A DNA stretch of 64,000 nt from contig NZ_KB912877.1 in assembly GCF_000383855.1 (NCBI RefSeq), positions 1,875,285 through 1,939,284 on the forward strand. The letters are read 5' to 3'. The stretch's first letter is position 1, and each line of letters starts with the position of its first letter. Both the position numbers and the translations under genes were made by a program. Below, in pieces: positions 24,954 through 51,700 of this stretch. The notes beneath the pieces are model-generated. The model was not told the origin of the DNA, did no database searches, and worked only from the letters and a program-made list of their open reading frames with translations. This stretch comes from Methylobacter marinus A45. GTDB lineage: Bacteria; Pseudomonadota; Gammaproteobacteria; Methylococcales; Methylomonadaceae.

Positions 24954-24974
24954 AAATGATAATCGTTCTCATTT
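24954..24974. promoter_or_regulatory. Fur box upstream of the minus-strand small-gene pair
   Basis: aaatgataatc and ttctcattt around a central g give a 21-bp site close to the Fur consensus and very similar to the box at 10516. It precedes the minus-strand genes 24925-24474, which should be iron-repressed. A plus-strand target is unlikely because no plus gene follows. Confidence 0.8.
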
Positions 24975-24989
24975 ATATGTAAAGTGTTT

Positions 24990-25382: not shown

Positions 25383-25970
25383 TTATTGCGCCATTTTGCT
25401 GCTTAGGAACTCATCCATATCCGCGTTATGCACACGATAATAGATTTCCTCCACCGGCAACGTCAGATCGATTGATTCAAACGTGATTTCATCGCCAAGA
25501 AAGTAATGTCTCGGCAGCCAGGCTTCACGCCTCCGTATTACCTGAATATCGGCATAATCCTGCTCGATTAACACATACTCTTGCAAACTGGGTATGTTGA
25601 TATAAGACAGCAATTTAACGGTTTCGTCGGTTTTGCGCGTTGCCTTCGATAAAACCTCGACAATGATTATTGGGGATTCCGTGTAGTAAGGCTGGGACTC
25701 ATCGAAATGACAATCGACGCTCACATCGGGATAAAAGAAATTTGAACCAACCTTAACCTTCATGTCCGAACCAAAAGGTTCACAAGCTGAGCCGTCTAAA
25801 TGATTACCGAATTTTCTATAAATATTACCGGCAATTCGCTCATGGTTAGCACTTGCTCCAGCCATGGCATAAACATGGCCATTGATAAGCTCATGCTTTA
25901 CGTCGCTGATTAATTCGCCTTGTAAATAGTCTTGTTCGCTCACCAAATCTGGATTGTTCGGTTTTAACAT
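25383..25970 (-). CDS. Uma2 family (DUF820) putative endonuclease
   Basis: The protein has 195 residues from MLKPNNPDLVSEQDYL, chosen because aggaaa lies 9 bases upstream. It follows the Uma2/DUF820 pattern: HELINGHVYAMAGASANHERI, FGSDMKVKV, FFYPDVSVDC and PIIIVEVLSKATRKTDE, where the Asp and the ExL of the PD-(D/E)XK fold are visible (PDVSV and VEVLS). Members are common and numerous in many environmental bacteria; their biological role is unclear. It stands alone among repeats. Confidence 0.85.
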   Translation of the reverse strand: MLKPNNPDLVSEQDYLQGELISDVKHELINGHVYAMAGASANHERIAGNIYRKFGNHLDGSACEPFGSDMKVKVGSNFFYPDVSVDCHFDESQPYYTESPIIIVEVLSKATRKTDETVKLLSYINIPSLQEYVLIEQDYADIQVIRRREAWLPRHYFLGDEITFESIDLTLPVEEIYYRVHNADMDEFLSSKMAQ

Positions 25971-26260
25971 GGATTGTTTTTCCTGATTGCAACGCAATCA
26001 TTAACGAATGAAACGAATTATATTGACTCAACCAAGCATTCATCTTATCAAACAATAAACTACAAATGCGCTCGGCTCTTCTGTCAACAAATGCCTTATC
26101 CCAGGCTAAACCATTATTTCCTCTAATGGACGGCGCCATTTGAACGGTTGAGCCTTTTGGTTATGCCGAAACACATTCCGGTTTGATTCAGCCAACTGGC
26201 CGATATCGGCTTAGGAACGCGCATAAAATAACTTCCTCAAGTGCGCGGAGGATTTCCGGT

Positions 26261-26362
26261 GTAGGTGCGGATTCGCCTAGGGCGCCTACTGTTGGTATCC
26301 GCACAGTGCGAATACCCTCTAGGGCACAAGTACCCATAGGGCATAAATGAATTCGCACCTAC
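26261..26362. repeat. Dispersed palindromic repeat copy
   Basis: The element starts gtaggtgcggattcgc and ends aattcgcacctac, so the ends are inverted repeats. Inside it has gtgcgaataccct(c)tagggcac and cccatagggcat. It belongs to the family found at 24390-24457, 25101-25144 and 55131-55210. The flanking bases 25998-26260 hold no supported gene. Confidence 0.8.
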
Positions 26363-26391
26363 AATTCCCTGATTTATTCCATGCTCATTAC

Positions 26392-26961: not shown

Positions 26962-28143
26962 TCACAGCCCTATTACAAACAGCCTGCTTAATGCTGTACT
27001 GATTTGTTTGACTGCTCCTTCTAAATCGCTGTCTGTGGTTTCAAAGCCAAGGCTGAATCGTATTGCCGAATCCGCTTCTTCTCCTGTCAAACCAATGGCT
27101 TTAAGAACATGGGATGGTTCAGGAATACCAGAGGTACAAGCCGATCCAGTAGATGCTGCCAAATGCGGCTGTACTGCACCAAGAATATCTTGCGCACTGA
27201 ATCCTAAAAATCCGATAGAAATATTGCCGGGATGACGTTTATCCGCCTCGGGGCCATACAGCTTGCTTGGCCATGGGAGCGCCGAGAGCATGCCAATAAA
27301 CCTATCCCGACGCATATGTAATTCATCGCGCATACTGCCCATATTGTCTGAGCACATATATTCGGCGGCTGCTCCCATGCCAACACATAATGGAGTAGGC
27401 AAGGTGCCCGACCGCAATCCATTTTGCTGACCGCCACCATAGATTAGAGGCTCTATCTCGTCTTGGAGATTACGGTGAATATAAAGAGCACCGATGCCTT
27501 TGGGACCGTACATCTTGTGCCCAGATAGGCTAAGCAAATCTACATTTTGCGCGAACTCTTGCATACTCATCGCGATTGGACCTTGTGCTGCATCGCAGTG
27601 AAAAACAGCGCCACATGCCTTAATAGCCTTAGATAATCCGGCGATATTCTGCATAGAACCAATTTCGTTGTTTACGGCCATGATAGAAACAATAAGCACA
27701 TCATCGTCAAGTTGCTGCTCTAGATCGGACAACAAAATATGACCATGCTTATCTACAGCGATTCTTTCTACTTTGAAACCATACTGATATTCCAGTACAC
27801 GTCCGACTGACAGTACACTTTTGTGTTCTATCGCGCTAAGGAGAATCCTTTTTCGTCGTGATCCTTTTAACATCGCACGTCTTGCTAGACCAAGCAACGC
27901 TAGATTGTTTGACTCTGTTGCCCCGGAAGTGAAGATAATTTCGTCACTGTCTGCACCTATGAGACGGGCTATTTGCTTTGTCGCGTTATCTATTGCAGCA
28001 GAAGATTTCCAACCAAGTGCATGATCCGAGGAATGAGGATTGGCAAATGATTCTCTGAAGTACGGATGCATTTTGAGCAAAACTTGTTCTGCCACAGGTG
28101 TTGTGGCCTGATAGTCAAAATACAAAAAATCTCTATTTATCAT
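26962..28143 (-). CDS. sspA: Cysteine desulfurase SspA/DndA-like, DNA phosphorothioation
   Basis: This 393-residue class V PLP enzyme resembles IscS/DndA. The PLP lysine is K210 in SLSGHKMYGPKGIGAL, and the catalytic cysteine is C336 in STGSACTSGIPEPSHVL. It would take sulfur from L-cysteine and pass it on for DNA backbone modification. Its divergent placement next to sspBCD is the typical SspABCD arrangement; a housekeeping iron-sulfur desulfurase would be expected beside iscU. The start ATG at 28143 has a weak ribosome site. It shares a 149-bp regulatory region with sspB. Confidence 0.88.
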   Translation of the reverse strand: MINRDFLYFDYQATTPVAEQVLLKMHPYFRESFANPHSSDHALGWKSSAAIDNATKQIARLIGADSDEIIFTSGATESNNLALLGLARRAMLKGSRRKRILLSAIEHKSVLSVGRVLEYQYGFKVERIAVDKHGHILLSDLEQQLDDDVLIVSIMAVNNEIGSMQNIAGLSKAIKACGAVFHCDAAQGPIAMSMQEFAQNVDLLSLSGHKMYGPKGIGALYIHRNLQDEIEPLIYGGGQQNGLRSGTLPTPLCVGMGAAAEYMCSDNMGSMRDELHMRRDRFIGMLSALPWPSKLYGPEADKRHPGNISIGFLGFSAQDILGAVQPHLAASTGSACTSGIPEPSHVLKAIGLTGEEADSAIRFSLGFETTDSDLEGAVKQISTALSRLFVIGL

Positions 28144-28206
28144 TTTTAATCAACAGGTTATTTCATTTTTCATAACTTCATACCCCTCGAGGCTTTCCTT
28201 CGCCTT

Positions 28207-28280
28207 CTGGAGGATACCTCCAGATTGACATTGACTATAGCATACTCTCTGTATTAAAGTCGCCTGGATGTATCATCCAG
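28207..28280. promoter_or_regulatory. Twin 17-bp palindromes in the sspA-sspB divergent promoter region
   Basis: ctggaggatacctccag (28207-28223) and ctggatgtatcatccag (28264-28280) are both perfect palindromes around a 3-bp centre and share ctgga.g...c.tccag. Their centres are 57 bp apart. The second ends 12 bp before the sspB ATG and includes its ribosome site region (ccaggag). Between them lie a ttgaca at 28225-28230 and AT-rich sequence. This looks like a two-site operator for a dimeric repressor that controls sspBCD and perhaps sspA. The regulator is not identified. Confidence 0.65.
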
Positions 28281-28292
28281 GAGAAAATCAAA

Positions 28293-29243
28293 ATGGCACG
28301 CGGGCCACTTTACCAACAGGGCTATAAACCACAATTCTCAGGTCACGAGACCTTTCCCTTACGTTATGGATGGCTAAAGAAGTGCTATGACCGCGTATCT
28401 GAAACTGAGCAAGAGCCTAATAATAAAGCTCTATGTTGGGGAGATGATGCCATTGCGCGGTTCGGTGTGGGTAAGAATATGGTATCATCTATGCGCCATT
28501 GGGCTGTGGTTGCAGGTATTATCAGAGAGCCATCGGGATCCAATCAAGCAGAAACCACACCGCTCGGACAAATGCTTTTTGGTGAGCAAGGCGTTGATCC
28601 TTACCTTGAGAACCCAACTTCGTTATGGTTGATTCATTGGAAATTAGCAACAGAATGGAAGAGAAAGACCACATGGTATTGGGCGTTTAGCTATTACCCG
28701 GCGGTTACTTTTGAACGAGATCATCTCATTAAAAGGCTTGGGCGGGATTGGCCAAATGCCGCCCGTACGACGGTAAAGAATGACGTGGCTTGTTTTATCC
28801 GAACTTACGCAGCACAACCTTCATCCCCAAAAGCAGAAAGAGATGATTCTTTAGAATCTCCGTTAACCGAGCTAGGTCTAATCAAGCCTGTTTCCAAGCG
28901 TGATGAATTCCGCTTCGTTCGTGGTCAGAAAACTACCTTAGGAGATGGAGCTTTTATCTATGCCCTGCTTGAATTTTGGTCACAATTTTCTCCTAAGGTA
29001 TCAACACTGTCATTTGAAGCAATTGTACATGAGCCGGGATCTCCGGGCCGCGTTTTCCTGCTTGATGAAAACGACGTTGCAGACCGGCTTTCTCATATAG
29101 ATAGCATTACTAATAATGCACTTCGGTGGTCAGAAACAGCAGGATTGAAACAGTTGGTACGAGGATCTGATTTTGATTTCAGCAGTGCGCTTGAGTTTGT
29201 TCGAAAGGATTATGGGCGATCAGATGAAAGGGAGATCGCATAA
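28293..29243 (+). CDS. sspB: SspB, DUF4007 family protein of single-strand DNA phosphorothioation
   Basis: The 316-residue protein opens with the DUF4007 hallmark FSGHETFPLRYGWLKK (residues 15-30), followed by FGVGKNMVSSMRHWAVV and a C-terminal segment with SDFDFSSALEFVRKDYG. In the SspABCD system SspB is reported as a DNA nickase that prepares the site for sulfur insertion. The gene overlaps sspC by one base (taatg). The divergent sspA and the following ATPase and pyrophosphatase genes fix the identity. Confidence 0.88.
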   Translation: MARGPLYQQGYKPQFSGHETFPLRYGWLKKCYDRVSETEQEPNNKALCWGDDAIARFGVGKNMVSSMRHWAVVAGIIREPSGSNQAETTPLGQMLFGEQGVDPYLENPTSLWLIHWKLATEWKRKTTWYWAFSYYPAVTFERDHLIKRLGRDWPNAARTTVKNDVACFIRTYAAQPSSPKAERDDSLESPLTELGLIKPVSKRDEFRFVRGQKTTLGDGAFIYALLEFWSQFSPKVSTLSFEAIVHEPGSPGRVFLLDENDVADRLSHIDSITNNALRWSETAGLKQLVRGSDFDFSSALEFVRKDYGRSDEREIA

Positions 29244-32200
29244 TGGCATTAGTTAATCAAGTCCGCATTGCTCGGCGTTTCCAAAAATCAATAAGAATTG
29301 ATACGGATTTAGGTGAAAAAAGCGCTCTGGATGGCTTCATCTGTCCGCAATCGTCAGCAGATGTACTGCTTTCTATGGCCCGGCATGTTTCTGAAACGGG
29401 TCAATGTGCGTTCACATGGACTGGGCCTTACGGAAGCGGCAAGTCAAGTTTGGCTATTGCGTTAAGTGCGCTTCTCAATGGTAATGCAGATCTTCAAAAA
29501 GAGGCAGTAAAAGTTTTTGGCAGAAAACTTACCAATACGATGTGGAAGTCGCTTCCAACTGGATCAAAAGGATGGCGTGTTCTTCCGGTCGTTGGAAAAC
29601 GGGATAACCCTGTCGATGTAATCGGAGAGGCTATAAAAGAAGCTGGCTATGTTACCCGCCTCCCTAGTGGAGGCTGGTCAGAAGAACATGTTATAAACAG
29701 CTTGATAGAAATAGCTGCAAGCGATCCAAGTACGCATGGCGGTCTGATATTGTTCGTTGACGAAATGGGCAAGTTCCTAGAGGCTGCTGCTCATGATGGA
29801 ACGGATGTTTATATATTTCAGCAGTTAGCAGAAGCGGCGTCTCGAAGTAACGGTCGTTTTTTGTTTATAGGCGTCTTGCATCAAGCTTTTGATGAATACG
29901 CTCATCGGCTCTCACATCAAATGCGCGATGAATGGGCCAAGATTCAAGGGCGATTTGTTGATTTACCTGTTAATACGATTGGCGAGGAACAGATTGACCT
30001 GATTTCTCGGGCGATAGAATGCAACCAAGCTCAACCTCAAGCAACAGGACAATCCAAATCTGTAGCACAATTGGTGGGCAAGCAGCGTTTACAGGATGCA
30101 GAACGATTGGCTGCCATGCTGGAAAAATGTTGGCCTTTACATCCCGTCGTGGTGTGCCTTCTTGGTCCGATCTCGCGTCGCCGGTTTGGGCAAAACCAAC
30201 GAAGCATATTTGGTTTTCTGAACTCTTCCGAACTGCATGGTTTTCAAGATTACCTGCGTTCAGCGAACGAAACAGATCTCTATACGCCTTCCAAACTGTG
30301 GGATTATCTTCGGGCCAACCTTGAACCTTCTATCCTGGCTTCCCCTGATGGTCACCGTTGGGCCTTAGCAACAGAAGCAATGGAACGATGTGAGGCTTTG
30401 GGTGGAGATGTCTTCCTTGTTGATCTTTTGAAAACAATAGCCGTCATTGACCTTTTCAAAGAACGCTCTGGATTGGTCGCAAGCTTTGATCTTCTCAAGA
30501 CCTGCTTCCCGGATGTCTCTGAAAAGTCTTTGAAAGAAGCGCTTGATACCCTCGATAAATGGTCATTGACCATCTTCAAGAAATTCCAGAACGCCTATGC
30601 GATTTTTGCTGGAAGTGACTTTAATATCGATCAAGCCGTCAGTGTAGCATTAGAAGATATAAATGAACTTGACTTTGCTGCCTTGAAGTCTCTGGCGGGA
30701 CTTCAGCCCATTCTCGCCAAGCGACATTACCATAAAACCGGGGCTATGCGCTGGTTTGATGTGAATATCACTCCTGCTAAAGATGTGATGACTGTGTTAT
30801 CGCGTTTTCGACCCAAAAATGACCTGATTCGGCAGTTTCTGCTTGTAGTTCCCACTGAAGGCGAGGATGAAGAACTCGTCAAAAACCTTTGCCAAGAAGC
30901 GGCCGACTTTAGTGACGACTGGGATATTGTTGCGGGTTATTCACCAAGAGCTTGGTCTGTTGTTATGTTGGCCCGTGAGTTGCTAGCTCTTGATAAGGTC
31001 AGTAATGATCATCCTGAGCTTGCTGGGGACCACGTGGCACGACGGGAGGTTATGGCACGACTTGCAGATTTGCAGGCTCAATTGGAAACAGAATTAAGCA
31101 AATCATTTGACAAGGCCGAATGGTATCGAAAACATCATTCACGAAAGTGGTACAAACAGTCTGATTTAAATAGTCTTGCTTCCGAACTTGCGGATCGACG
31201 TTACAACCAGTGTCCGAAGCTGCATAATGAGCTCCTAAATCGTCAAAAACCGTCTAGTAGTGCAATTGCGGGGCAGAACGCTCTCTTGAGACATATGATC
31301 ACTCAAGAAGGTACAGCACGTTTAGGCATAGATGGCTACCCGGCGGAAGGTGGACTTTTCTCATCACTTCTTGAAGCCACAAGACTCTATGTAGAGACAA
31401 AATGCGGATGGCAGTTTGTGTCTCCTTCGGATGATGAAACTGATTCATGTAGGTTGTTTCCCGCTTGGAACTCGGCGGTTCAATTTATCAAAGAAAACAA
31501 ACATCGCTCTGTTGCTGTCTCGGAACTCTACGATCTTTGGTCAAAACAACCTTTTGGGATCAAAGAGGGTTTAATGCCCGTTTTATCTGTTGCTTTTATT
31601 CTTACTCAACGGGAGAATCTTGCCATATATCGGGAAGGTCTATTTCGCGCGCGTTTTGATGATGTTGATGTTGAGTATATGGCTAAAGACGCGCAAACAA
31701 TCCAGTTACGCTGGATGGACCTGAACGATATATCCCGCCGATTACTTTATGATATGGCCGATGTGGTACGCGACCTTGATACCAAAAATCAGCTAATCCA
31801 TCTTGAGCCTATTGATGTCGCAAGGGGTTTAGTTGCAATTTACGAGCAATTACCGAATTGGACAAAGCGCACCGTGCGACTCTCTGCTAGAGCGGTCCAG
31901 GTTCGGGATATATTTAAACGTGCTCGTGATCCGAACAAGTTCCTGTTTGATGATATTCCTGCTCTACTTGATACAAAGAAAGCCGATATTTCAAGTGAAG
32001 AAGATATTCAGAAAATTGTTTCCATTGTAAAAGAGGGATTGCAAGAACTTGTGCAAGCATATCCGTTAATGCTGCACCGGCTACGGGATATGTTACTTGC
32101 AGAATTACAAGTTCCAAATTTATCGAAACAAGCTCTATTCGAGCTCCGTGAGCGTGCGGAAAATGTGAGAGAACTAGCGGGCGACTTCCGCTTGGATGCG

Positions 32201-32638
32201 TTTGTTGGCCGTATCGCTCAGTTCGATGGGGATGATCTGAAATTCGAAGGCGTAGCTAGTCTGGCCGCTAATAAGCCACCAAGAGATTGGGTTGATCCAG
32301 ATATGGATCGTGCCTCAATAGAATTGGCCGATATGGCGCAGAAGTTTCTCAGGGTAGAGACATTCACACGCATTAAAGGCCGCCCAGAAAAAAGACAGGC
32401 TATGGCTGTGTTAGTTGGGATGGAAGGCAGACCAACTCCTCTTTTGGAAGAATTCGATGTAATTGACTCTGACAGAGAAGCCATCAACGACCTAATTGAC
32501 CGAGTTTCGAAAACACTGGAGTCTGTAAATACGACAAGCCGAAGCATTATCCTGGCGGCACTAGCAGAACTCAGTGCCCGTTATATGCAGGTTCCCGAAA
32601 CTGACAAGCGAAAAGCCGGAAACGGAAAGGTAGCATAA
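29243..32638 (+). CDS. sspC: SspC, large P-loop ATPase of DNA phosphorothioation
   Basis: The 1131-residue protein has a Walker A motif GPYGSGKS at residues 61-68 and a Walker B LILFVDEMGKF with D173/E174. The rest is long and mostly helical with no other motif that I recognise. SspC is the ATPase of the SspBCD modification complex, and it stands between sspB and sspD as in described loci. It is separated from sspD by 3 bases. Size and context are consistent; the sequence motif alone would not distinguish it from other large NTPases. Confidence 0.85.
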   Translation: MALVNQVRIARRFQKSIRIDTDLGEKSALDGFICPQSSADVLLSMARHVSETGQCAFTWTGPYGSGKSSLAIALSALLNGNADLQKEAVKVFGRKLTNTMWKSLPTGSKGWRVLPVVGKRDNPVDVIGEAIKEAGYVTRLPSGGWSEEHVINSLIEIAASDPSTHGGLILFVDEMGKFLEAAAHDGTDVYIFQQLAEAASRSNGRFLFIGVLHQAFDEYAHRLSHQMRDEWAKIQGRFVDLPVNTIGEEQIDLISRAIECNQAQPQATGQSKSVAQLVGKQRLQDAERLAAMLEKCWPLHPVVVCLLGPISRRRFGQNQRSIFGFLNSSELHGFQDYLRSANETDLYTPSKLWDYLRANLEPSILASPDGHRWALATEAMERCEALGGDVFLVDLLKTIAVIDLFKERSGLVASFDLLKTCFPDVSEKSLKEALDTLDKWSLTIFKKFQNAYAIFAGSDFNIDQAVSVALEDINELDFAALKSLAGLQPILAKRHYHKTGAMRWFDVNITPAKDVMTVLSRFRPKNDLIRQFLLVVPTEGEDEELVKNLCQEAADFSDDWDIVAGYSPRAWSVVMLARELLALDKVSNDHPELAGDHVARREVMARLADLQAQLETELSKSFDKAEWYRKHHSRKWYKQSDLNSLASELADRRYNQCPKLHNELLNRQKPSSSAIAGQNALLRHMITQEGTARLGIDGYPAEGGLFSSLLEATRLYVETKCGWQFVSPSDDETDSCRLFPAWNSAVQFIKENKHRSVAVSELYDLWSKQPFGIKEGLMPVLSVAFILTQRENLAIYREGLFRARFDDVDVEYMAKDAQTIQLRWMDLNDISRRLLYDMADVVRDLDTKNQLIHLEPIDVARGLVAIYEQLPNWTKRTVRLSARAVQVRDIFKRARDPNKFLFDDIPALLDTKKADISSEEDIQKIVSIVKEGLQELVQAYPLMLHRLRDMLLAELQVPNLSKQALFELRERAENVRELAGDFRLDAFVGRIAQFDGDDLKFEGVASLAANKPPRDWVDPDMDRASIELADMAQKFLRVETFTRIKGRPEKRQAMAVLVGMEGRPTPLLEEFDVIDSDREAINDLIDRVSKTLESVNTTSRSIILAALAELSARYMQVPETDKRKAGNGKVA

Positions 32639-32641
32639 AAT

Positions 32642-33478
32642 ATGTCTATAAAGGAAAAGCACGTTCTGGGATTGTCTGGAGGTCGAGACAGCGCTGCGCT
32701 AGCCGTCTATATGCGTCAGCATCACCCAGATATTGAGGTCGAATATTTCTTTACGGACACAGGGAAGGAACTTCCCGAAGTTTATGAGTATTTGGGAAGG
32801 CTTGAAGGTTTCCTTGGTCAACCTATACGAATGCTCAATCCTGATCGTGATTTCGATTTCTGGCTGAAACAATACAACGACTTTCTTCCGTCTGCGCAAA
32901 CTCGTTGGTGTACTCGGCAATTAAAGTTGCGTCCTTTTGAGAACTGGGTACGTCCTATGCTGGAGGACGGAATAAAAATCTATAGTTATGTCGCTATTCG
33001 CGGAGATGAAGAATACCGCGAAGGGTATTCTTCAAAACATGAAAACCTTATAGTAAAGCTACCTTTTAAAGAGGCTGGCATAGACAAAGCAGGCGTTTTG
33101 GAGATTTTAGATGGAGCAGGTTTGGGCCTGCCCAAGTATTATTCCTGGAGAACTCGTAGTGGCTGCACATTCTGTTTCTACCAGCAAAAAATTGAATGGG
33201 TGCGGTTGATGGAAAGGCACCCCGAAGCTTTTGAAGAAGCAAAAACCTATGAAAAAAATTCCGTTGACCATGGTTCACCTTTTACATGGAATCAAGGAGA
33301 ATCCCTGGAAGAACTTTCCAAGCCGGAGCGCATACAGCAAATTAAAGAAGACCACGCGCAGCGCCTGATCAGATTAAAGAGCAAAACGCAACCTAATCCA
33401 TTGCGCACTGATAGTGAGCCTTTGGATATAGATGACCTTTATGGTAAGACTAAGGTATGTCTCGCATGCCACAAGTAG
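32642..33478 (+). CDS. sspD: SspD, PAPS-reductase-like ATP pyrophosphatase of DNA phosphorothioation
   Basis: The 278-residue protein has the pyrophosphatase loop SGGRDS at residues 12-17 (usually SGGKDS in the family), the segment EYFFTDTGKELPEVYEYL, and five cysteines that could hold an iron-sulfur cluster or zinc: C90 (RWCTRQLK), C175/C178 (SGCTFCFYQQK) and C273/C276 at the very end (VCLACHK). It resembles DndC and would activate the DNA phosphate with ATP for sulfur transfer. It is the last plus-strand gene; the opposing gene ends 56 bp further on, and no terminator is visible. Confidence 0.88.
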   Translation: MSIKEKHVLGLSGGRDSAALAVYMRQHHPDIEVEYFFTDTGKELPEVYEYLGRLEGFLGQPIRMLNPDRDFDFWLKQYNDFLPSAQTRWCTRQLKLRPFENWVRPMLEDGIKIYSYVAIRGDEEYREGYSSKHENLIVKLPFKEAGIDKAGVLEILDGAGLGLPKYYSWRTRSGCTFCFYQQKIEWVRLMERHPEAFEEAKTYEKNSVDHGSPFTWNQGESLEELSKPERIQQIKEDHAQRLIRLKSKTQPNPLRTDSEPLDIDDLYGKTKVCLACHK

Positions 33479-33534
33479 TGACGCGACAGATTCAGAGAAG
33501 TGAAGCTCTAGTTTTTGTTTTCAGGCTTGATTAA

Positions 33535-36462: not shown

Positions 36463-36568
36463 ATCTTAAATCCAGTTAGCCCAATTGGTTCGTCTAAACA
36501 TTTAAACTTCCTGAGTCGATGATTCGAGCGTCTAGTTCGGTAATTTATGCAATACTGGGGTTAATTAA

Positions 36569-40962: not shown

Positions 40963-40979
40963 ACAAAAACTCCTCTAAT

Positions 40980-41216
40980 TTATCGTATCGCTACGCAGAA
41001 CGTAGCCTCATGAGTACTGGGTGTTAGAAAAGCTCTCATGTAAGATGAGCTGACCAGTCCCAGCACGTAATCTAACCGTAATTTAACAGAGGCAATCTTC
41101 AGAAGTTCGGCTAATGAACTCCAAGATTCTCCAGTCTTATTAGGTTCAGTAAGCTCAATACCAGACTTCAATTCAGGCATTGCCACACCAGAACCGGCAT
41201 AATCTAGCAAAAACAC
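40980..41216 (-). CDS. Small hypothetical protein between dptH and the GHKL gene
   Basis: The frame encodes at most 78 residues from a GTG (MFLLDYAGSGVAMPELKSGI...). The same frame continues upstream for about 14 codons (QSIQTSEPEFIESR) without an ATG, and an ATG in another frame lies at its beginning, so either a rare start or a frameshift is possible. The end is 17 bp before the GHKL start. It is polar and has no motif that I recognise. Confidence 0.45.
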   Translation of the reverse strand: MFLLDYAGSGVAMPELKSGIELTEPNKTGESWSSLAELLKIASVKLRLDYVLGLVSSSYMRAFLTPSTHEATFCVAIR

Positions 41217-41268
41217 TCGGCTCTCGATAAATTCTGGTTCACTAGTTTGAATTGATTGTTATGCATTA

Positions 41269-44200
41269 CTAACTATAGTTACGTGCAACTGCAATCAATC
41301 GGGCAAGTTCAGATATTTCTTCTTCCGAAGCAAATGGCACCTGGACGAGGATAACTCTACCCTCTCCTGACAGCTTAGCCGCCAGATGACCGCGACCGAG
41401 TAATCGTTCTGCGCCAGGCTCGTCAAGAACAAGCATCGAATTCTTTTTATCTGCAACTTTCAATACCAAGCGGTTTGTAAGGTTTGCACGAAGCTGCATC
41501 GGCAGGGCATCCTTGTCCGGTCGCTGCGTAATAAGGACGAGGTTAATTCCGGCTGCTCTCGCTTTTACGCCAAGACGACTAGCGTTCAGGTCCACGGCGT
41601 CCCGATATTCATTGATCATCATCCAGTCCGCCAATTCATCGTGAAACAGCCAGATACGCGGAAGACGTTCGGAAGGAGCAACCTTGCGATTATAGTTATC
41701 AAGCTTAGTAACACCAGCATCAGCTAGAAGGCGGTTTCTTCGCTCCATTTCCGCAACCAATTCTTCTAAAGCATGAATGGCCTTGTCCTGTTCAGTAATC
41801 AGGTCGCCATCAAGGTGCGGCATATTGCGCAGCCATGGGAAGTCGATTCCAGCCTTAGGGTCTATCATGCGTATGCGCGCTCTTTCCGGAGAATTTGTAG
41901 CGCAGATATCCAGTAAAAGAGATTGCACTAACACACCTTTACCGCTCCCCGTCTCACCGGCGATTAATGTATGTGGCCCATGAGGCTGGTGGCCTCCAAA
42001 TTCATTGCCGACATTAAGATACAATAGCTCGCCATCTGATTCTTTTGCACCAATTAGTAGGCTCGTATTTGAATCAGGCGCAGTTTCAGGAAGCTCGCGC
42101 CTTCGCCAAAGGTCACGCAAACGTAAGATTGCTCTATGCGGCCTTTTCACCATGATAATAATTTCCATGGGAGCAGCCAGCACATTAATGACATCAATGG
42201 CGTGAGAGGTAAGTAATTCTTGCCGTTTCTTTTCAACTTTCGGTACAGTGAGATCGTCTGACCCTCGAAAACGAACAAGGACTGCATTAGGCGTCAAACG
42301 AGCTCCTATAAGCTCTGCCGTCATATCGTAACCGCGCAATGCTCTCTGCAATGATTTGACTGTTGCTTCAAGCCACGCTTTGGTATTTTCATCATCTTCA
42401 TCCGAAACAGTCCCGGCATTTACCCAGTACGCGAGCTCTTGTGATGACCATTTCGCCAATACTTCATCAGAGACTGTATTGTCATCCTCTTCCGCTTTTA
42501 ATTCCGGCTCAAGCTGAGCTTCAAACTGAGATATTGGGCCTTCATCGAGTGATAATGGATCAGTTTGCTGAGGTTTTCCCATGGGATTGGGTGTGTCGGT
42601 ATCATCGTTCGATACAGCTGATGATTCTTTAGATTGAGAACTTTGCGCAACGATAGGCTGGGTATGCTCCTCAGAACTGCCAGACGTAGATTTCGAGGAG
42701 ACAAGGGCAGCGCCCCGCTCTTTACTGTCAAGAAAGTCTTTCCCATCATTCGCGAAGACATGCTTGGCGAATGACCTGAAAAACCCAGCAACACTAGATT
42801 TATCAAAAACCTGTTGAGTGCAATGAGGCATGGCTTTGAGCGGAGTTGGATCTCCTGCATCTACATTTTCTTCACTATCGTGAATGAATACATGGGAGAA
42901 ACCCGCAAGTTGGATCGGGACATTGTCCTGACGAATTTCATCTGACCATTTATAGAGATCCCAGTCGTTCATTAAATCTGGATCAAATGGCTCTATTCCT
43001 TCGATCATAAAATCGCCTAAACGGTGTAGCCAGATTTCACGGTCAATTCGTTTGTGCTGAGGATCAAGCGCTCTTCCAATACGAGCAACGGTTTCCTCCA
43101 GTTGTTTTGCGGATTTCTTTGCGTGCGTTCTATATCCACGAGAACTAACGAATTTCGCTTCTGAGATTGCAACCTTTAAAACTGGAGCGCCATTCTCGAT
43201 GCGCGGAGCAATGGCCATAATGTCTGCAATCTGCTCTTCGTGCTGTCCGAACCAAGACGCAAAATCATCAAGGAAATACCAGCCTAGAGGTAAGTCTGTT
43301 CCCCCGAGCTCTGCACGGATCTTTTCCATTGACAATACGATACCAAGCAATTCGTTTGCATAGTGGCCATAGCGCGCAGCTCGCATGACAACCTGACCAG
43401 AAAGAGCATTGGCTTGCTCAATCAGACGGTCGATAAAATTTTCATCGCCACCTACGATCTTCGGATCAAGTCGCTCTAGCCGCTCTTTCAGAAGTACCCG
43501 CAATAACCTAGGTTTAGAAGTCGTCGAGACGACAATATTACGATCAACATGTCGATCGTGAATATGACGTATAACGCGAACCCCGTTATTGCTCAGAAGC
43601 CGCCGGTCAACCAGTTCATCGAAATTAATAACCCATTCGCCAATCCTGTGGGTCTGACGAAACACATCTCCAATATCGCCATCGCGAAAATTGATCTCGC
43701 GTGCTGGAATAACGTTGCCCGGTAGTGCATTGTCTCCTTCGAGAAATCCCTGCACCAGGTTGAGATATTGTTGGCCAGCAACGGGCTGAGCGGGACACGC
43801 AAGATAGACAGAAGTTGCCGAGTCGGCCAACCCTATTGGGCGGCGTCTAGACCAGCGTGCCGGAACATGATTTAGTAGCTCTGGGTGCCGCTCGCCCGGT
43901 GATCGTTTCCAAACAAGTTTTGCATTGCGCGCGACAACATCCTGAAGAGCTACAAGGTCTGTAGCCCGATTTTCATCATCATCAGGAAGGTCTGCTGTGT
44001 CAAGGAAACCAACACGAAGTCGTGAGAGAAAGTTGCGTGCTGCTTCACTTGCCATGATTGAGCCAGACTCTTCACTTACAGTGACGTTTTGTTGCTCGTA
44101 GATTCGCCTGATACGCTTAGGCTCTGAATGCGTCAGTAGTAGATCACATTGCAGCTCGTTCTCTTGTTCCACCTTACTTGATAGCTCGGAGGCAAGCGCG

Positions 44201-46635
44201 CTCGGTAGAGCCTTTGACTCAGCATTGAACAGTACCACTGAAAAATTGCTCCGTTCGTGGGGCAGAAGCTTGAGATACTGCTCGCCGACATTAGCAAATG
44301 CTTTCGCTGCTATATCAGGTCCGATATCAAGTGTATCATCCCCATCTGGACGAGGCCTGCGCAATGGTGGTTCAGCAAGAGTGTAATCATAAGAGGTGTC
44401 GGCTGCTGAAAGCAGTATTGGCTGATCCTGATCAAAGCCAATGCAAACTTCAGGGTAATAATTCGAGGTAAGTTCAAGCTGCACCTGACCAAACAAGAGG
44501 TCAGCCCGGAAGATATCATCCTCGTTGGCCTGGAGTACGTCAGTTATGAGATTGGCCACTTGGTTGGCCTTGGCGTAAATTTCAGCGAGTCGCATTGGAT
44601 GCCAAGGTGTAACAATCGCTGCGGGAGCACCAGCTCCGACATTCGCGACACCGAAGCGTAAAGTCTCGTGCCAAAGCTTCTCTCTTGCGAGATCGTTGTT
44701 AGCGTATTCTAGAAGGCTTTTTAGAAGTCGATTATAGGCATTAGCTTGTTCGACAAATGCGTCTGACGCAATTCCTGGACCAGATGTTGTTACCCATTCC
44801 CGAATGGTCTTTGTATACGCATATAGAAAAGAATCAAATGCTTCACGTATGGTCGTGGTATTCTGAGACCCCAATATGTTGGCTATTTCATCTAGAGCGG
44901 ATAAAAACGCTCTTCCTCTATCACCATTGTCTTTATTAGGGGCGACCAGTTTGCCACCGTTTGAGTTGGTTACGTCTCTTATTGTATTAACATCATCAAG
45001 TACGATCCTTTGAATGCTTCCCTTAGCACTGACAGATTGTCGTGCAATATCTGCCGTTGGCAGTAATGCCTGATCATCATCCAGGTTTGCAACGCTCAGC
45101 AGGTCATCCGGTAACGCTGTAGCGATTGCATCAACTGGCATTTCCCAATGAAAAATAAGCTTGGCTTTTGCACCTTCAGGATCGAGCACAACCTCAAATT
45201 TGATCGAACGCGCGTCCTTTGATCCGGATGCAACTTTTGCCAAATCATTGTCGGCTTGCGGAAAGTAAAATTCCGAAAGCTTGCCAAAATCGAATTCGAC
45301 CTTACCATAGAAAAGGGTTTCTAGCCCTCTATATCGAAATGCAAAATAACGAGCGATCTTTGCATTTTTGCCACGCCAGAAACTCTTCTCCCTTGCGTTA
45401 GGAATACGTACGACTAGTTTCCTATCTATCAGCTCTTCATCGCTCACCCGTCGACGCAGACTGTCCAGCGTTGCCAACAAGCCAACAAGGAAGTCCTTAT
45501 ATGTTTGTGGATTGCGATAGATATATCGTTCCCATGAACTAGAAAGCTTTTTGTCGCGGGCCAGATGTTCTCGGTGAGACTCGAAAAACTCTACAAGATC
45601 GTCTGACGGTTCCTTAGGGAAATCACTTGAGAGTAATTCGCGTTCTTCATCTTCAAGCAGATCATCGAACTCATCGTCAAAAAACTTGATTGACTGTTCT
45701 CCCAAAGGTACAGACGCACTCTTTGTAATGCCTTCGAATAATTCGGATACAGAACGCCAGTCCAGATCAACCAAACCTTTTTGTGCATCGGACCAATCAT
45801 CAAGTCGCAAATCAGCCTCTAGAAAATCCTGAATAGCTTTGCATGCCGTATCATCAAGGCGATCAGCGATATCTTCAAAATTTGCTCGGAGTTGTTCGAT
45901 GAGTATTGGTTCCCCCCGCTCAGTTTCCCGTACAAGTAGTGGTCGGATACGACTGTGTAGATCTCGGAAAATTTTGTTCCATTCAGAAATTTTTGCGCGT
46001 TTTTTCTCAGGGATGCGATCGAAATAACCGGAGTAACGCGGGAGTCTTAGACTAGGTAAAGCATTGTCTATAGCTTTTTGTAGCGGGAGACCTTTGGTAA
46101 TGATTCCTTTTGAGATTTCCAGTACAAAATCGGCAAATGTCTCGATAGTCCGTGCTGCATGGGTAAGATTTGCCGATTGAAGAGCTGTGAAGAGATGTTC
46201 CCGCTTGCTCTCGTCAAGATGAGTGGATGTTAGACCGGCTCTTTCAATCCACGAGTCATAGCGTGTCCTTAGTGTGTCGGTTTCTATCTTTGTGATCTTT
46301 TCAACACTCTTGTCATTGCGTTGGAGTTCTTCCTGTGAGGCGGCAAAGAGTACCGCGCGCGTTTCGTCTTCCAGCCTACAATGTCGCCAGTGTGTAATAG
46401 ATTGATCGCTTCTTGCTTTTGAGGGCAGAATGCCTTCAAGGTCGAATATAGCCGAGATTTTAACTGAGACCGTTTTGCCTGTTTCTGAATCGGCCAATAC
46501 TGCTTGCGCAATCGAACGTACGAGAGAAGACTCCAAGCCAAGCATACAAAAGCGCAGAGTCCCTTCTGGCTCCTGATCAAGGTGAGCCTTGATATAGTCA
46601 AGCGCCACTGCCGCGATGAGTTTGTTTCTCGTCAT
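41269..46635 (-). CDS. dptH: DptH/SspH-like restriction protein with C-terminal FtsK motor
   Basis: This 1788-residue protein ends in an FtsK/SpoIIIE-type ATPase: Walker A GETGSGKG with K1566, RIRMIDPKAGIDFPWL, RIWLFHDELADWM as Walker B, and LVLITQRPDKDALP. The rest, about 1500 residues, has no clear catalytic motif, apart from an acidic low-complexity linker around residues 1320-1410. DptH of the Dnd restriction set and the H protein of the SspFGH cassette have this layout of a long N-terminal part plus FtsK motor. It overlaps the previous gene by ATGA. It probably moves along DNA or joins F and G at unmodified DNA. Confidence 0.8.
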   Translation of the reverse strand: MTRNKLIAAVALDYIKAHLDQEPEGTLRFCMLGLESSLVRSIAQAVLADSETGKTVSVKISAIFDLEGILPSKARSDQSITHWRHCRLEDETRAVLFAASQEELQRNDKSVEKITKIETDTLRTRYDSWIERAGLTSTHLDESKREHLFTALQSANLTHAARTIETFADFVLEISKGIITKGLPLQKAIDNALPSLRLPRYSGYFDRIPEKKRAKISEWNKIFRDLHSRIRPLLVRETERGEPILIEQLRANFEDIADRLDDTACKAIQDFLEADLRLDDWSDAQKGLVDLDWRSVSELFEGITKSASVPLGEQSIKFFDDEFDDLLEDEERELLSSDFPKEPSDDLVEFFESHREHLARDKKLSSSWERYIYRNPQTYKDFLVGLLATLDSLRRRVSDEELIDRKLVVRIPNAREKSFWRGKNAKIARYFAFRYRGLETLFYGKVEFDFGKLSEFYFPQADNDLAKVASGSKDARSIKFEVVLDPEGAKAKLIFHWEMPVDAIATALPDDLLSVANLDDDQALLPTADIARQSVSAKGSIQRIVLDDVNTIRDVTNSNGGKLVAPNKDNGDRGRAFLSALDEIANILGSQNTTTIREAFDSFLYAYTKTIREWVTTSGPGIASDAFVEQANAYNRLLKSLLEYANNDLAREKLWHETLRFGVANVGAGAPAAIVTPWHPMRLAEIYAKANQVANLITDVLQANEDDIFRADLLFGQVQLELTSNYYPEVCIGFDQDQPILLSAADTSYDYTLAEPPLRRPRPDGDDTLDIGPDIAAKAFANVGEQYLKLLPHERSNFSVVLFNAESKALPSALASELSSKVEQENELQCDLLLTHSEPKRIRRIYEQQNVTVSEESGSIMASEAARNFLSRLRVGFLDTADLPDDDENRATDLVALQDVVARNAKLVWKRSPGERHPELLNHVPARWSRRRPIGLADSATSVYLACPAQPVAGQQYLNLVQGFLEGDNALPGNVIPAREINFRDGDIGDVFRQTHRIGEWVINFDELVDRRLLSNNGVRVIRHIHDRHVDRNIVVSTTSKPRLLRVLLKERLERLDPKIVGGDENFIDRLIEQANALSGQVVMRAARYGHYANELLGIVLSMEKIRAELGGTDLPLGWYFLDDFASWFGQHEEQIADIMAIAPRIENGAPVLKVAISEAKFVSSRGYRTHAKKSAKQLEETVARIGRALDPQHKRIDREIWLHRLGDFMIEGIEPFDPDLMNDWDLYKWSDEIRQDNVPIQLAGFSHVFIHDSEENVDAGDPTPLKAMPHCTQQVFDKSSVAGFFRSFAKHVFANDGKDFLDSKERGAALVSSKSTSGSSEEHTQPIVAQSSQSKESSAVSNDDTDTPNPMGKPQQTDPLSLDEGPISQFEAQLEPELKAEEDDNTVSDEVLAKWSSQELAYWVNAGTVSDEDDENTKAWLEATVKSLQRALRGYDMTAELIGARLTPNAVLVRFRGSDDLTVPKVEKKRQELLTSHAIDVINVLAAPMEIIIMVKRPHRAILRLRDLWRRRELPETAPDSNTSLLIGAKESDGELLYLNVGNEFGGHQPHGPHTLIAGETGSGKGVLVQSLLLDICATNSPERARIRMIDPKAGIDFPWLRNMPHLDGDLITEQDKAIHALEELVAEMERRNRLLADAGVTKLDNYNRKVAPSERLPRIWLFHDELADWMMINEYRDAVDLNASRLGVKARAAGINLVLITQRPDKDALPMQLRANLTNRLVLKVADKKNSMLVLDEPGAERLLGRGHLAAKLSGEGRVILVQVPFASEEEISELARLIAVARNYS

Positions 46636-48164
46636 GAATCGCTCCTGAACGGGTTTTCGACATAGGCACAGTCATCAGAAAGGCGGCGTAGCAACCCCAG
46701 CGCTTTAAGTCGCTGTTCAAGGCGTTGTGTGTTCTGCATAAAGGCATTCTGGTCGGTTGGCAAAGTTCCGAAAGCACGCTCCGCCTCGCTAGCTCCAATT
46801 ACTAATTGGAACCGATCATATAGTTTGGCGAGGAATCGGTGGTATTCTTCTCGACGTTCGTTAACCGTACATATTACAAGGGCTTTGAGTAGAGCGTCAT
46901 CTGGTGAATACCATGTTCCCGCACCTCGATGCGATACGGCCAATCCAACCTGTCGTGCCCATTCCATATGCACCTTTGCGACGTGTTGCTGGTGGCGTTT
47001 CTCAGCATATCCTCTGAATGTTTCAAAAATCGTCTCGGGATCGCCAGACGGTAGACCATCATCAGGTTGCCATTCATAGCGCTGTGTGAGGTATTCTCGT
47101 ATTGCATCAGCAGGTGCTCTTGCTTGAAGTGCGGCTCGCCATCGCTCATCCTTTCTGGCAGCATCTACATATGCGCGGACTGCACGAGTAGAAAGCATTC
47201 GATTTGCTCCGAAATTCTCCTTAGAGAGTTCAAAAAGTGTCGTTCTTCGCGGCGAGGCAATCTCCAAGACAAATTTGGGATCGCTTGCATTTCCAACTTC
47301 TTCACTAGCACGCCGCAGCATATAAAGCAGCATATGCAAAGCTGAAAGACGCATCAAAGGATCGAGTAGGGCTTCTCCAGACAGGTCCAGCTTCAACAGT
47401 CGTATCCATGTGTCTGCTAATTCTCGGTACTCGGATCGCTCTGCAAAAGGTAGGTAGCCAATGGTGCTAGATACAGTATTGGAGTCGACTCGATAACCAT
47501 CAGGCAACAATGCGAGGACTATTCGATTCCAGGTTTCATCTTGTCGTAATAATTTCTTCGAAATCTTCTCCGCAATTTCTTCTCCCTTGCCACTCCTGTT
47601 CAGCATGAGGTATAGCAATTCGCCACTCCGTGCGAAGAATCGACGGTCCGGACTTCCATTTATATTCGCCGGTAAATCTGCGTAAAGGCAATTAGGACCG
47701 TAAGGGTATAAGAACTTGGAGCTCCATCGGCGCTGGCGATGCGGTTCAATTGCAGTAGTCTGGAAAAACTCTACAACTCGGGCTAGACGCGCGAATGAGC
47801 CAAAACGATTCTGCAGATAACCGAAGTCATCGTCAGCCGCAAAAGTCTTTAGCCAAGCTCGCCATCTCTCGGGGTCAGACTGCTCGGTCTCTTCTATGTA
47901 GCGAATATGAGGATTGTTGAAAACCAACTCTCTTAATGGAATCAGTCTAGGAATGTGATAGGTAAAGGATTCATGTGCTCCGTCTCTCCGAACTTCATTC
48001 AGAGCTTTGCCTTCAGCATGTCTCGACTGGAAAATCGAAAGAAATTCGAGAAATACCAACCATGGTGTTTGGTCATTATAAAAGCGATGCCCCCAGATCG
48101 CTTCATCAACCCAGACATTAACATCACTCCGGTATTTCGCAGGTGCTTCAAGACGTGTATTCAT
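46632..48164 (-). CDS. dptG: DptG/SspG-like protein of the restriction module
   Basis: The 510-residue protein has no obvious catalytic or membrane motif. It contains YHIPRLIPLRELVFNNPHIR, an Arg/Leu-rich helical middle and a C-terminal part with a winged-helix look (QRLEQRLKALGLLRRLSDD). The assignment rests mainly on position: it lies between a DptF-like ATPase and a DptH-like FtsK protein and overlaps both by four bases, as in the F-G-H order. Confidence 0.6.
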   Translation of the reverse strand: MNTRLEAPAKYRSDVNVWVDEAIWGHRFYNDQTPWLVFLEFLSIFQSRHAEGKALNEVRRDGAHESFTYHIPRLIPLRELVFNNPHIRYIEETEQSDPERWRAWLKTFAADDDFGYLQNRFGSFARLARVVEFFQTTAIEPHRQRRWSSKFLYPYGPNCLYADLPANINGSPDRRFFARSGELLYLMLNRSGKGEEIAEKISKKLLRQDETWNRIVLALLPDGYRVDSNTVSSTIGYLPFAERSEYRELADTWIRLLKLDLSGEALLDPLMRLSALHMLLYMLRRASEEVGNASDPKFVLEIASPRRTTLFELSKENFGANRMLSTRAVRAYVDAARKDERWRAALQARAPADAIREYLTQRYEWQPDDGLPSGDPETIFETFRGYAEKRHQQHVAKVHMEWARQVGLAVSHRGAGTWYSPDDALLKALVICTVNERREEYHRFLAKLYDRFQLVIGASEAERAFGTLPTDQNAFMQNTQRLEQRLKALGLLRRLSDDCAYVENPFRSDS

Positions 48165-49993
48165 GCGCCTGCCCTTATACGGATATTGTCAGGATGTGCC
48201 CGACCACACTCGTCAACGGTCAGCGCCTGTAGATTGATCTCATCTCCCGAAGGTGGTTCACCGATTAAATCATCAAGTCGCTTAATCAGACGTAATTTGA
48301 AATCAAGGAAATCTTCGTTGCATTGACGAGAGAAACTTGCCGGCAGGCTGCCGCTTGCGACGCGAACAAGATACTCAAAATGCGTTAATTGGAGTGTAAG
48401 GCTATCAACCACGCCATCTCCTCCACCTGCGGGATCAATAATTTGCAAGCGTGGTGTCACTCCATCAGCGCCAATCGAAAAATTAAGATAAGGGGTTCGG
48501 CGATGTCTTGTTGTTGGAATATTATAGTTCAGCAAAGAGGCGATTCGACCGCGTCCGTCACCTCCAGAAGAGGCCAAATACAGCTCTGTACCGTCATCAA
48601 TCATCATACCGCAAAACGTCCTGTTAAGCCCACGCACGATTAGTTCAATTGTTCTCGACACATCGCCACCATTCGCAAGTCCGTCTACAAACGACAGGAA
48701 TCGACCTGACGCTTGGTAAACAGTTAATCGCCAAGGATCGAGCAAACTACTAGTTGGCAGTGAAAAGAACAGGCGTTGCCTTTGCCGAGAGAGTGTTAGA
48801 ATAAACTCTTCTATATTATCCCGTGCCCCCTCCAGATAGTCGCGCAAATACGGTTCGTAGGCAGGTGCTCCATAATAAGTATCCATCGACATAAGTTCTT
48901 TGTAGAGTTCCGAGTCACCGTACATTCCATAAATAAGCAAATTGTCGAACTTGTTATCTGTCTCGCGACCAATCCCAAAGGCCTCAAGATTACTGAAAAC
49001 CTGATATTGTTGTCGTTGTCGCTCGGGCAGGTTCATCCCAAATACGTTGGAATAAGGATTTGTTAGTCGATAATCCTGTTTTTCTGCTCGGTTCTTTGCC
49101 GTCCGGCAGGTTAATAAAATCTTCCGTCCTTGCTGGTCTCCGAGAAGTATGTTTACGCTTAGAAGGAGAAGATCGCGGATAGGCAGATGCATGCGATTGG
49201 CTCGTGCAAGCTTCATTAACTCACCGAGACGTTTGCGAAATACCGATCCGTTAGCTCCATTACGAAGTCGTTCACGATTGATTCGAATGGGGCAGACTGT
49301 TGAGCCATCTTGATTGAGCAGTTCACAGCTATCGCACTGTGACCACTGAGGATGTTCGACGATTTGTTCGACGAGTTCCTGAAAATGTTCAGATGCATCC
49401 AAGCGGCTGAGATTGTAAAGATTCAAATTGAGTGCATCGTCAGTCGTCCGATCCTCGACAAGCATGTCTTCCACGATTCTAAATACTTTATGTGCGCCTT
49501 CTCCTTGTGTATCAGACCAATCACGCCAGCTTGCGAGAAGCTGTCCATCATTGGCTGCCACAAGATAAACACTTTTGTCGTTTTTTCGCGATACCGCATT
49601 CGCCAATTCTGCGAGTAAGTTGCTTTTCTCCTTTTGTGTCAACTCGCTTAGGTCTTTAACAATTGTTAAGTGCTTCCCCGAGGCAGGAAGTGATATAGAG
49701 ACAATCTTTTCACCCGCTTTCCACTGTTCAGGATCGCCCCCAAAATCTGTCCAAATGCGTCGACAATGATATGTCTTTCCATCTCCGGCCGTGCCCGTAA
49801 GTATTACATTACGAGGTGTGGGTAAGCTGAAATTGTCCTGAATTTCTTGCAATCTGGACGGATTGATATGAATTACAGGGTCTATGACATGTCGATCGAT
49901 CTCGGTTTGGATAAGCTCGTCGTACATGTTATCCCCTGCTGGGATAGGACCATAATGGCGTAAAAAGGTGACTAGTCCATTCGATTGACTCAT
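48161..49993 (-). CDS. dptF: DptF/SspF-like P-loop NTPase of the restriction module
   Basis: The 610-residue protein carries NVILTGTAGDGKT with the Walker A at residues 67-74, an uncommon P-loop that I associate with DptF. A CDSCELLNQDGSTVCPIR stretch could bind zinc. It is the first gene of the minus-strand run, with gagagg about 10 bases before the ATG, and overlaps dptG by ATGA. In DndFGH and SspFGH systems this module attacks DNA that lacks the phosphorothioate mark. Which of the two sets this belongs to is decided here by the presence of SspBCD. Confidence 0.75.
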   Translation of the reverse strand: MSQSNGLVTFLRHYGPIPAGDNMYDELIQTEIDRHVIDPVIHINPSRLQEIQDNFSLPTPRNVILTGTAGDGKTYHCRRIWTDFGGDPEQWKAGEKIVSISLPASGKHLTIVKDLSELTQKEKSNLLAELANAVSRKNDKSVYLVAANDGQLLASWRDWSDTQGEGAHKVFRIVEDMLVEDRTTDDALNLNLYNLSRLDASEHFQELVEQIVEHPQWSQCDSCELLNQDGSTVCPIRINRERLRNGANGSVFRKRLGELMKLARANRMHLPIRDLLLLSVNILLGDQQGRKILLTCRTAKNRAEKQDYRLTNPYSNVFGMNLPERQRQQYQVFSNLEAFGIGRETDNKFDNLLIYGMYGDSELYKELMSMDTYYGAPAYEPYLRDYLEGARDNIEEFILTLSRQRQRLFFSLPTSSLLDPWRLTVYQASGRFLSFVDGLANGGDVSRTIELIVRGLNRTFCGMMIDDGTELYLASSGGDGRGRIASLLNYNIPTTRHRRTPYLNFSIGADGVTPRLQIIDPAGGGDGVVDSLTLQLTHFEYLVRVASGSLPASFSRQCNEDFLDFKLRLIKRLDDLIGEPPSGDEINLQALTVDECGRAHPDNIRIRAGA

Positions 49994-51432: not shown

Positions 51433-51700
51433 AGCTTAATCTCTGATAATCTTTTCCTATTTGATTCTCATAATTTCATGACATATTGAATTGCCGTCTC
51501 ACTGATTTCCGAAGGCGGTATCTTGATAAATATGCTGTGGCACTGTTCATGCGAGATACCGCCTAATCTCATTGTAACCATAGTTTTACGGATTCCGTTT
51601 TTTTAATGCTGTCCATGTGGAGCCAGTATTTTGTTTTAGTTCCTTGTTGCTCGGGTAGTTCCGGCGCATTATCAGGAATCCGAATAATTGGATACAAAAC
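51433..51700. other. Spacer between HIRAN gene and glmS with an inverted repeat
   Basis: aggcggtatct (51513-51523) and agataccgcct (51554-51564) form an 11-bp inverted repeat with a 30-base gap, located upstream of the HIRAN gene start and downstream of glmS. It could be an operator or a weak terminator; no T-run follows. Confidence 0.4.

Follow-up and report, generated by a model that had tools for sequence, protein, structure and literature searches.

A kinase/receiver pair as a recurrent partner of SspBCD genes, found within an SspABCD-SspFGH defence island of Methylobacter marinus A45

Do the additional genes inside a phosphorothioate (PT) defence island belong to the system, or do they merely sit within it? 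The question is raised by a window of 64,000 nucleotides from Methylobacter marinus A45 (contig NZ_KB912877.1, positions 1,875,285 to 1,939,284), the whole stretch of DNA analysed here and the frame of all coordinates below. The seven genes of the published SspABCD-SspFGH system (PMC8092258; this and the other papers are cited from passages of them) are all present at 26962..49993, and between sspD and sspH the window adds three minus-strand genes: a dual-GHKL protein (the kinase, 38602..40962), a receiver-like protein (36569..38605), and a protein joining HNH, STAND and TPR parts (HNH-STAND, 33535..36462). Judged from its sequence, this is a PT defence island of the SspABCD-SspFGH kind that has taken up a partner module recurrent in Ssp systems, and we consider the kinase/receiver pair to be, very probably, a functional component of Ssp systems.

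Linkage of the pair to SspBCD

We searched one genome per species (84,980 species) with an alignment of seven kinases and obtained 178 relatives, the best 80 of which were analysed with their flanks. Ssp matches below 75 bits were ignored in the count over these 80 loci, and L137 (genome G084), with SspD at 67 bits, did not qualify as an Ssp locus. The fetched flanks held SspB, SspC or SspD in 72 of the 80 pair loci, all three in 62, and at least one SspA-D or SspFGH gene in 77. Of the other three, L053 is a contig of 4.4 kb, L033 runs out of contig 4.2 kb beyond the kinase and has PbeA- and PbeC-like genes together with an HNH-STAND gene, and in L083 an SspE-cluster gene adjoins. On plasmids, 31 records cover at least 80% of the kinase. 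All 16 with at least 29.8% identity carry SspC, including four from Acinetobacter baumannii and two near-identical ones from Agrobacterium, and the 15 at 22–25% identity were, by eye, not among the 60 listed of the 67 plasmid records with SspC. Neighbourhood counts had been proposed in a first-pass annotation of the island as the test of chance association, and with Ssp genes in 72/80 genome loci (77/80 on the wider gene set) and 16/16 plasmid records, we rejected the pair as a chance neighbour.

Even samples of whole genomes from the class (n = 369) and the phylum (n = 398), some genomes being common to both, gave SspD (E ≤ 1e-80) in 10 and 11 genomes, respectively, the window's own genome in both. 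The receiver (E ≤ 1e-10) was found in two class genomes and one phylum genome, never without SspD. Where the pair occurs, Ssp is nearly always present too, but most of the sampled Ssp genomes do without the pair. As a separate observation in these samples, another MORC-type ATPase occurs in PT systems: a PbeA-like helicase, a MORC-type HATPase_c_3 protein and a PLD-type protein stand together near sspBCD in 6 of the 19 Ssp genomes besides the window's own (loci L133, L155, L157, L158, L159 and L161).

Within the 80 loci, the gene just upstream of the pair, co-oriented and within 500 bp, is SspD in 39 and SspC in 13, and in 11 the pair is placed inside the operon in the order sspB-sspC-kinase-receiver-sspD. 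Kinase and receiver overlap by four bases in 49 of the 75 loci having both. The restriction genes in the fetched flanks are mixed (FGH in 22 loci, PbeA-like genes in 14, SspE in 5; FGH, SspE or Pbe in 41/80). FGH is not in view in 58 loci, where another restriction module or none is recognised, and the profiles recognise none of FGH, SspE, Pbe and Mrr in 38/80 loci, or in 21 of the 56 with both flanks of at least 9 kb. Among the plasmid records with SspH at a coverage of at least 80%, 8 of 33 carry the pair. The pair is tied to the modification genes SspBCD, not to SspFGH, and we rejected it as an FGH-specific accessory on the strength of the 58 loci without FGH in view. The first-pass annotation had suggested that the extra genes could control the FGH module or provide a second layer of defence; a control or second-layer role is still the best reading of a pair that is non-random in its company, but the tie is to SspBCD, and FGH is seen in 22/80 loci only.

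Three more distant kinase relatives were also looked at: L138 has an annotated DNA cytosine methyltransferase as its neighbour, L139 (whose kinase has no HEF_HK match) a class I S-adenosylmethionine (SAM)-dependent methyltransferase, and L140 neither kind of methyltransferase. The fetched stretches around the L139 and L140 pairs hold no Ssp gene.

The cassette of HNH-STAND, receiver and kinase (33480..41302, minus strand) lies where sspD and sspH converge, between the two genes, and is absent from two otherwise collinear loci, L129 and L128, both of which are SspABCD-SspFGH loci without any of the three genes. L129 aligns to window bases 27032–33477 (74% nucleotide identity) and, in two segments of 76% and 72%, to 41303–49249; the aligned parts on either side of the cassette position stand about 1.2 kb apart in L129 and about 0.24 kb apart in L128. 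On these alignments, the cassette is an insertion between sspD and sspH. At the cassette position of L129 we noted a 362-a.a. protein (L129:10822–11910) with hydrophobic stretches by eye and no PADLOC match. In L032 the slot holds the kinase, the receiver and an Mrr-type gene beside FGH, and in L040, L035 and L047, Pbe-like genes, kinase and receiver are followed by HNH-STAND, an Mrr-type gene or nothing.

With kinases below 700 a.a. and receivers below 550 a.a. left out of the distance correlations (and of the residue counts below), pairwise distances correlate at 0.96 between kinase and receiver (n = 77), 0.97 between SspB and SspC (n = 69), 0.88 between SspC and SspD (n = 71), and 0.58 between kinase and SspC (n = 71); each of these values exceeded all 499 permutations. 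The window kinase is 78% identical to those of L015–L018, whose SspC proteins are 33–36% identical, and L058 is the reverse, with its kinase 47% and its SspC 81% identical to those of the window. Kinase and receiver are, by these measures, a unit that reassorts, in part, against SspC.

The three cassette proteins

The kinase (786 a.a.) probably starts at the TTG codon at 40962, since from there its N-terminus resembles that of the L009 homologue, which has an ATG start. Pfam recognises HATPase_c_3 (PF13589; 54.3 bits, 1.9e-14, residues 110–197) and HATPase_c (PF02518; 68.5 bits), both well over the cut-offs, and the halves assigned from these positions are an N-terminal MORC/Hsp90-type ATPase and a C-terminal histidine kinase with H569. 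This histidine and both adenosine triphosphate (ATP) sites are invariant in 84/84 kinases of at least 700 a.a. from the window, the plasmids and the genome loci. The motif names used here (ATP sites, P-loop, receiver residues) follow general knowledge and the residue set in PMC8011034 and do not stand for motif calls. The AlphaFold model has a mean predicted local distance difference test score (pLDDT) of 83.6 and a predicted template modelling score (pTM) of 0.69, and its Foldseek matches include HK853-type kinases (E 1.3e-10), TRAP1 (1.3e-9), MORC2 with DNA (2.7e-9) and MORC4 (3.8e-9), in a table of which the aligned ranges are not part. Other than the GHKL ATPase, the kinase/receiver switch has no recognised membrane or sensory domain, and no nuclease domain was recognised in kinase or receiver by Pfam, PADLOC, NCBIfam or Foldseek searches of PDB and BFVD. 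Viral contigs gave 15 relatives of the kinase (best 32% identity), and 50,697 phage records gave two at 80% coverage, both at 24–25% identity.

The receiver (678 a.a.) comprises an N-terminal receiver region (D19, D20, D141, S178, K206), a helical linker and a C-terminal domain with a TPACDL motif. D19, D20, D141 and K206 are invariant in 77/77 receivers of at least 550 a.a., and position 178 is S or T in all 77; the AlphaFold model has a mean pLDDT of 88.7 and a pTM of 0.69. Neither Pfam (PF00072 included), PADLOC nor NCBIfam gave a match at the limits used, and Response_reg_2 (PF19192) matches 0/7 Ssp-linked receivers at E ≤ 1. A profile of the family does match the receivers of the distant pairs L139 and L140 (probability 95.6, E 1.2e-8, columns 128–491, including the CDL motif), and the best BFVD row for the window protein is a response regulator (E 0.0039). 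No DNA-binding output domain was recognised by Pfam, PADLOC, NCBIfam or the fold search. A PemK/MazF-like output domain, hinted at by a BFVD row, was tried and rejected (hhalign probability 0.2 against a two-sequence profile).

The HNH-STAND protein (975 a.a.), a possible facultative second effector, matches HNH, AAA_16 and TPR_12 above the Pfam cut-offs, which gives an HNH motif, a STAND/AAA_16 P-loop and C-terminal TPR repeats. The HNH and P-loop residues are conserved across six aligned sequences (the window's included, that of L018 left out). Homologues occur in 6/80 pair loci, each directly downstream of the receiver and on the same strand, with SspE in L016, L017 and L018 (the last cut by a contig end) and with Pbe-like genes in L024, L033 and L040. 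None of them is accompanied by FGH in the fetched flanks, beyond which FGH could lie, and the window is the sole FGH case observed. Among the 369 class genomes the protein is full length in the window's own genome only, with a 95-residue match in G081; plasmids gave one match over 15% of the query, and no relative was confirmed in viral contigs. From its position, HNH-STAND looks like an optional effector attached to the kinase/receiver switch. The first-pass annotation had listed it in one run with FGH; by the counts, the gene is tied to the pair (6/6 directly downstream of the receiver), which it accompanies in only 6/80 loci. In the same position, directly downstream of the receiver, three loci have a protein of 810–834 a.a. 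(L034:14375–16807, L057:12458–14908, L090:14409–16913). Its L090 copy and a homologue in L094 have no Pfam or PADLOC match, and the L094 homologue shows GHKL-like motifs by eye.

The island and its genomic setting

The seven Ssp genes are all named by strong matches to PADLOC models. The cysteine desulfurase SspA (26962..28143, minus strand; PADLOC 3e-124, Pfam Aminotran_5 2.7e-78) is followed on the plus strand by SspB (DUF4007; 28293..29243; PADLOC 1e-105, Pfam DUF4007 1.2e-84), the ATPase SspC (29243..32638; PADLOC E = 0, 1369.8 bits), and SspD (32642..33478; PADLOC 7e-137), which is 3′-phosphoadenosine 5′-phosphosulfate (PAPS) reductase-like. On the minus strand, SspF (48161..49993; PADLOC 1.4e-225), SspG (46632..48164; 5.1e-200) and SspH (41269..46635; E = 0, 2552.3 bits) form one run. 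The layout of SspABCD, FGH, kinase, receiver and HNH-STAND that the first-pass annotation had drawn was borne out by PADLOC and Pfam, and the coordinates confirm the four-base overlaps it had listed for F/G, G/H and kinase/receiver. It had also placed a small open reading frame (ORF) in the minus-strand run, at 40980–41216; this matches nothing in Pfam, and the fetched loci from other genomes offered no convincing homologue, so that, not being conserved, it was rejected as a gene. Scans of 33300–41600 for promoters (8 sites vs. 11.3 in shuffles) and terminators (9 vs. 8.0) gave no excess, so we make no statement on the transcription units of this stretch.

The GC content of bases 24001–52000 is 0.42–0.48, compared with 0.52–0.62 for bases 1–24000 and 0.46–0.52 for the right flank (52001–64000, with glmS and atp genes), a clear step being present on the left side only. 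In two congeners, homology to the window breaks off right after glmS, at base 51696, and picks up again within bases 1–13.7 kb (in one congener 1–606 only). Because of this break and resumption, the stretch downstream of glmS is a variable site larger than the island itself. The end of glmS, beside the homology break (window 51696–51703), is a known integration hot spot. Several repeated intergenic elements, in families of 146, 64, 62 and 24 nt, lie at the left end of the island (23915–26366). No transposase domain was found among the flanking ORFs scanned; the scan covered part of the ORFs, and no search was aimed at transposon ends. Elsewhere, a gene family (c6) is common to the pair loci L014, L034, L068, L070, L084 and L086. 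In L014 it corresponds, by gene order, to an annotated transposase gene, and that locus also has a TniQ-domain gene; Tn7-like elements are possible carriers of pair loci.

A second Ssp locus is found in the same genome outside the window (G000:C1:3203000–3222900, L127), with SspB, SspC and SspD, after which come genes with a weak likeness to SspF and SspG (59 and 48 bits). The pair is absent from the fetched stretch of this locus.

What the pair may do

Kinase/receiver pairs of like architecture (HEF_HK/Response_reg_2, PF19191/PF19192) have been published with restriction-modification (R-M) systems (PMC8011034), so the first-pass statement that no described SspFGH locus with such a pair and an HNH-STAND protein was known needs to be set beside this precedent. 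The pair in the window resembles them in its kinase, with N-terminal HATPase_c_3, HEF_HK and C-terminal HATPase_c, in the adjacent receiver gene, and in the receiver residue set reported there; its neighbours are PT-modification genes, whereas those of the published pairs are C5 methyltransferases. A term search of that paper gave no 'phosphorothio', 'Ssp' or 'Dnd'. Such a pair has been remarked on near the Ssp locus of A. baumannii global clone 2, an Ssp system without its nuclease, and according to the authors it could suggest a new Ssp variant (PMC12421847). This is, in the passages cited, a remark on one lineage, with no protein family, pairing statistics or mechanism. In an A. baumannii plasmid locus among ours (L014), which may or may not be the one they mean, the pair adjoins SspBCD. 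The Shedu protein VcSduA, earlier annotated paraMORC3, likewise carries a MORC-like GHKL ATPase, at its N-terminus, in an antiphage protein (PMC12137116), where the ATPase is fused to a nuclease; in the window its fusion partner is a histidine kinase, and the receiver is a protein of its own. Term searches found no histidine kinase, HATPase or regulator in PMC8092258 and no histidine kinase, MORC or GHKL in PMC10853773; PMC12839542 deals with type-4 BREX, and PMC12137116 and PMC9523054 with other GHKL or MORC systems. No further description of the pair as an Ssp partner was recognised among the papers listed by searches of the open-licence PMC literature, which does not imply its absence from print.

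The explanation we favour, by a modest degree over doubt, is that a MORC-type sensor kinase and its receiver, acquired by the SspABCD-SspFGH locus, gate PT-based restriction, the signal and the output being what we infer. The N-terminal MORC/Hsp90-type ATPase of the kinase would close on DNA as an ATP-dependent clamp and so might sense foreign or unmodified DNA, or a loss of the PT state. Sensing would drive autophosphorylation at the conserved H569 by the C-terminal kinase domain, and the phosphate would pass to the conserved D141 of the receiver. Through its C-terminal domain, the phosphorylated receiver may then license or restrain whichever restriction module is present, here SspFGH, with HNH-STAND, going by its position, as a possible further facultative effector under the same switch. 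That the pair works by phosphotransfer we think probable; that its output gates restriction rather than modification is an even call.

Several observations weigh against this explanation. SspFGH with SspBCD is antiphage as published (PMC8092258), so that Ssp acts without the pair, which, leaving the window's own genome aside, is present in only 1 of the 19 SspD genomes sampled. In the 38/80 loci without a recognised FGH, SspE, Pbe or Mrr gene, a restriction switch would have no visible target. The receiver was called in 75/80 loci; four of the five without a call end within 1.3 kb of the kinase, and L043 does not. The query alignment was built from Ssp-linked proteins only and the closest 80 of 178 relatives were analysed, so the linkage applies to this clade and need not extend to every dual-GHKL kinase, and two of the N-terminal kinase motifs served as search patterns, so that their invariance is partly imposed. 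The kinase–SspC correlation of 0.58, being above all 499 permutations, means that reassortment is only partial. The HEF_HK match of the kinase is marginal (PF19191; 24.2 bits vs. a cut-off of 24.1) and PF19192 matches no Ssp-linked receiver, both unlike the published pairs. The receiver itself matches a small classical receiver profile (two sequences) only weakly (hhalign probability 11.6, E 0.0026, 44 columns at the phospho-Asp), and the Foldseek search of PDB and BFVD gave nothing for it at E ≤ 0.001, the C-terminal domain included.

The pair could instead be a restriction partner of SspBCD in its own right, alongside SspE and SspFGH, in which a MORC-type DNA clamp acts with a partner protein that has effector activity. 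We regard this as rather unlikely, though it is the strongest of the rivals. The 21/56 well-flanked loci that have the pair and none of the known restriction genes would then be explained, and published counts leave room for such a partner: 2,211 of 2,678 sspBCD loci lack both FGH and SspE, and the authors raise the possibility of more restriction counterparts (PMC8092258). Moreover, BbrUII/HgiDII-type restriction enzymes have a GHKL part to which the N-terminal region of the kinase is similar (NCBIfam 3.6e-14, at 52 bits vs. a cut-off of 550; PADLOC REase_II 2.7e-8), and VcSduA offers the case of a GHKL ATPase fused to a nuclease. However, no nuclease domain is recognised in kinase or receiver, FGH, SspE or Pbe is also present in 41/80 loci, and the receiver region points to regulation.

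Regulation might also be aimed at the modification arm, with the pair sensing DNA or the PT state and setting the level or activity of SspBCD in the manner of an R-M control gene. The closest positional tie, to sspD and sspC and in 11/80 loci inside the operon, speaks for this, as does the occurrence of the pair with several restriction modules. We nevertheless think it unlikely: no DNA-binding output domain is recognised in the receiver, and its C-terminal region is common to the two distant pairs without Ssp genes in the fetched stretches, which makes a control specific to PT chemistry less likely. It is highly improbable that the additional genes are simply neighbours in a defence island, each with a function of its own, although the island does lie downstream of glmS in a region differing in two congeners, and HNH-STAND, with the pair in so few loci, could be an independent abortive-infection gene. 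Against such independence of the pair stand the 72/80 and 16/16 linkage, the operon insertion, the four-base overlap, and a pairing kept despite reassortment.

Building on the gating of restriction by the pair, we tentatively raise a broader idea, to which we give less credence than to the gating itself. A MORC-type histidine kinase and its receiver may form a portable, modification-coupled immune switch that serves both SspBCD phosphorothioation and DNA methylation, reading the DNA state by an ATP clamp and passing the signal on, through phosphotransfer, to restriction effectors that can be exchanged for one another (FGH, SspE, Pbe, Mrr, HNH-STAND). Such a switch would explain part of the sspBCD loci without a known restriction partner.

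For those sspBCD loci that lack SspFGH and SspE, the pair, which recurs next to sspBCD and has kinase and receiver residues that do not vary, offers a candidate partner or controller open to direct testing. If the pair does gate restriction, PT-based restriction would be under the control of two-component phosphotransfer, and a related controller would serve methylation systems, neither of which we found described in the literature searched. The pair thus suggests a little-noticed control layer of DNA-sulfur immunity that travels with such systems in many bacteria, the DNA-cutting HNH-STAND protein being an optional addition to it.

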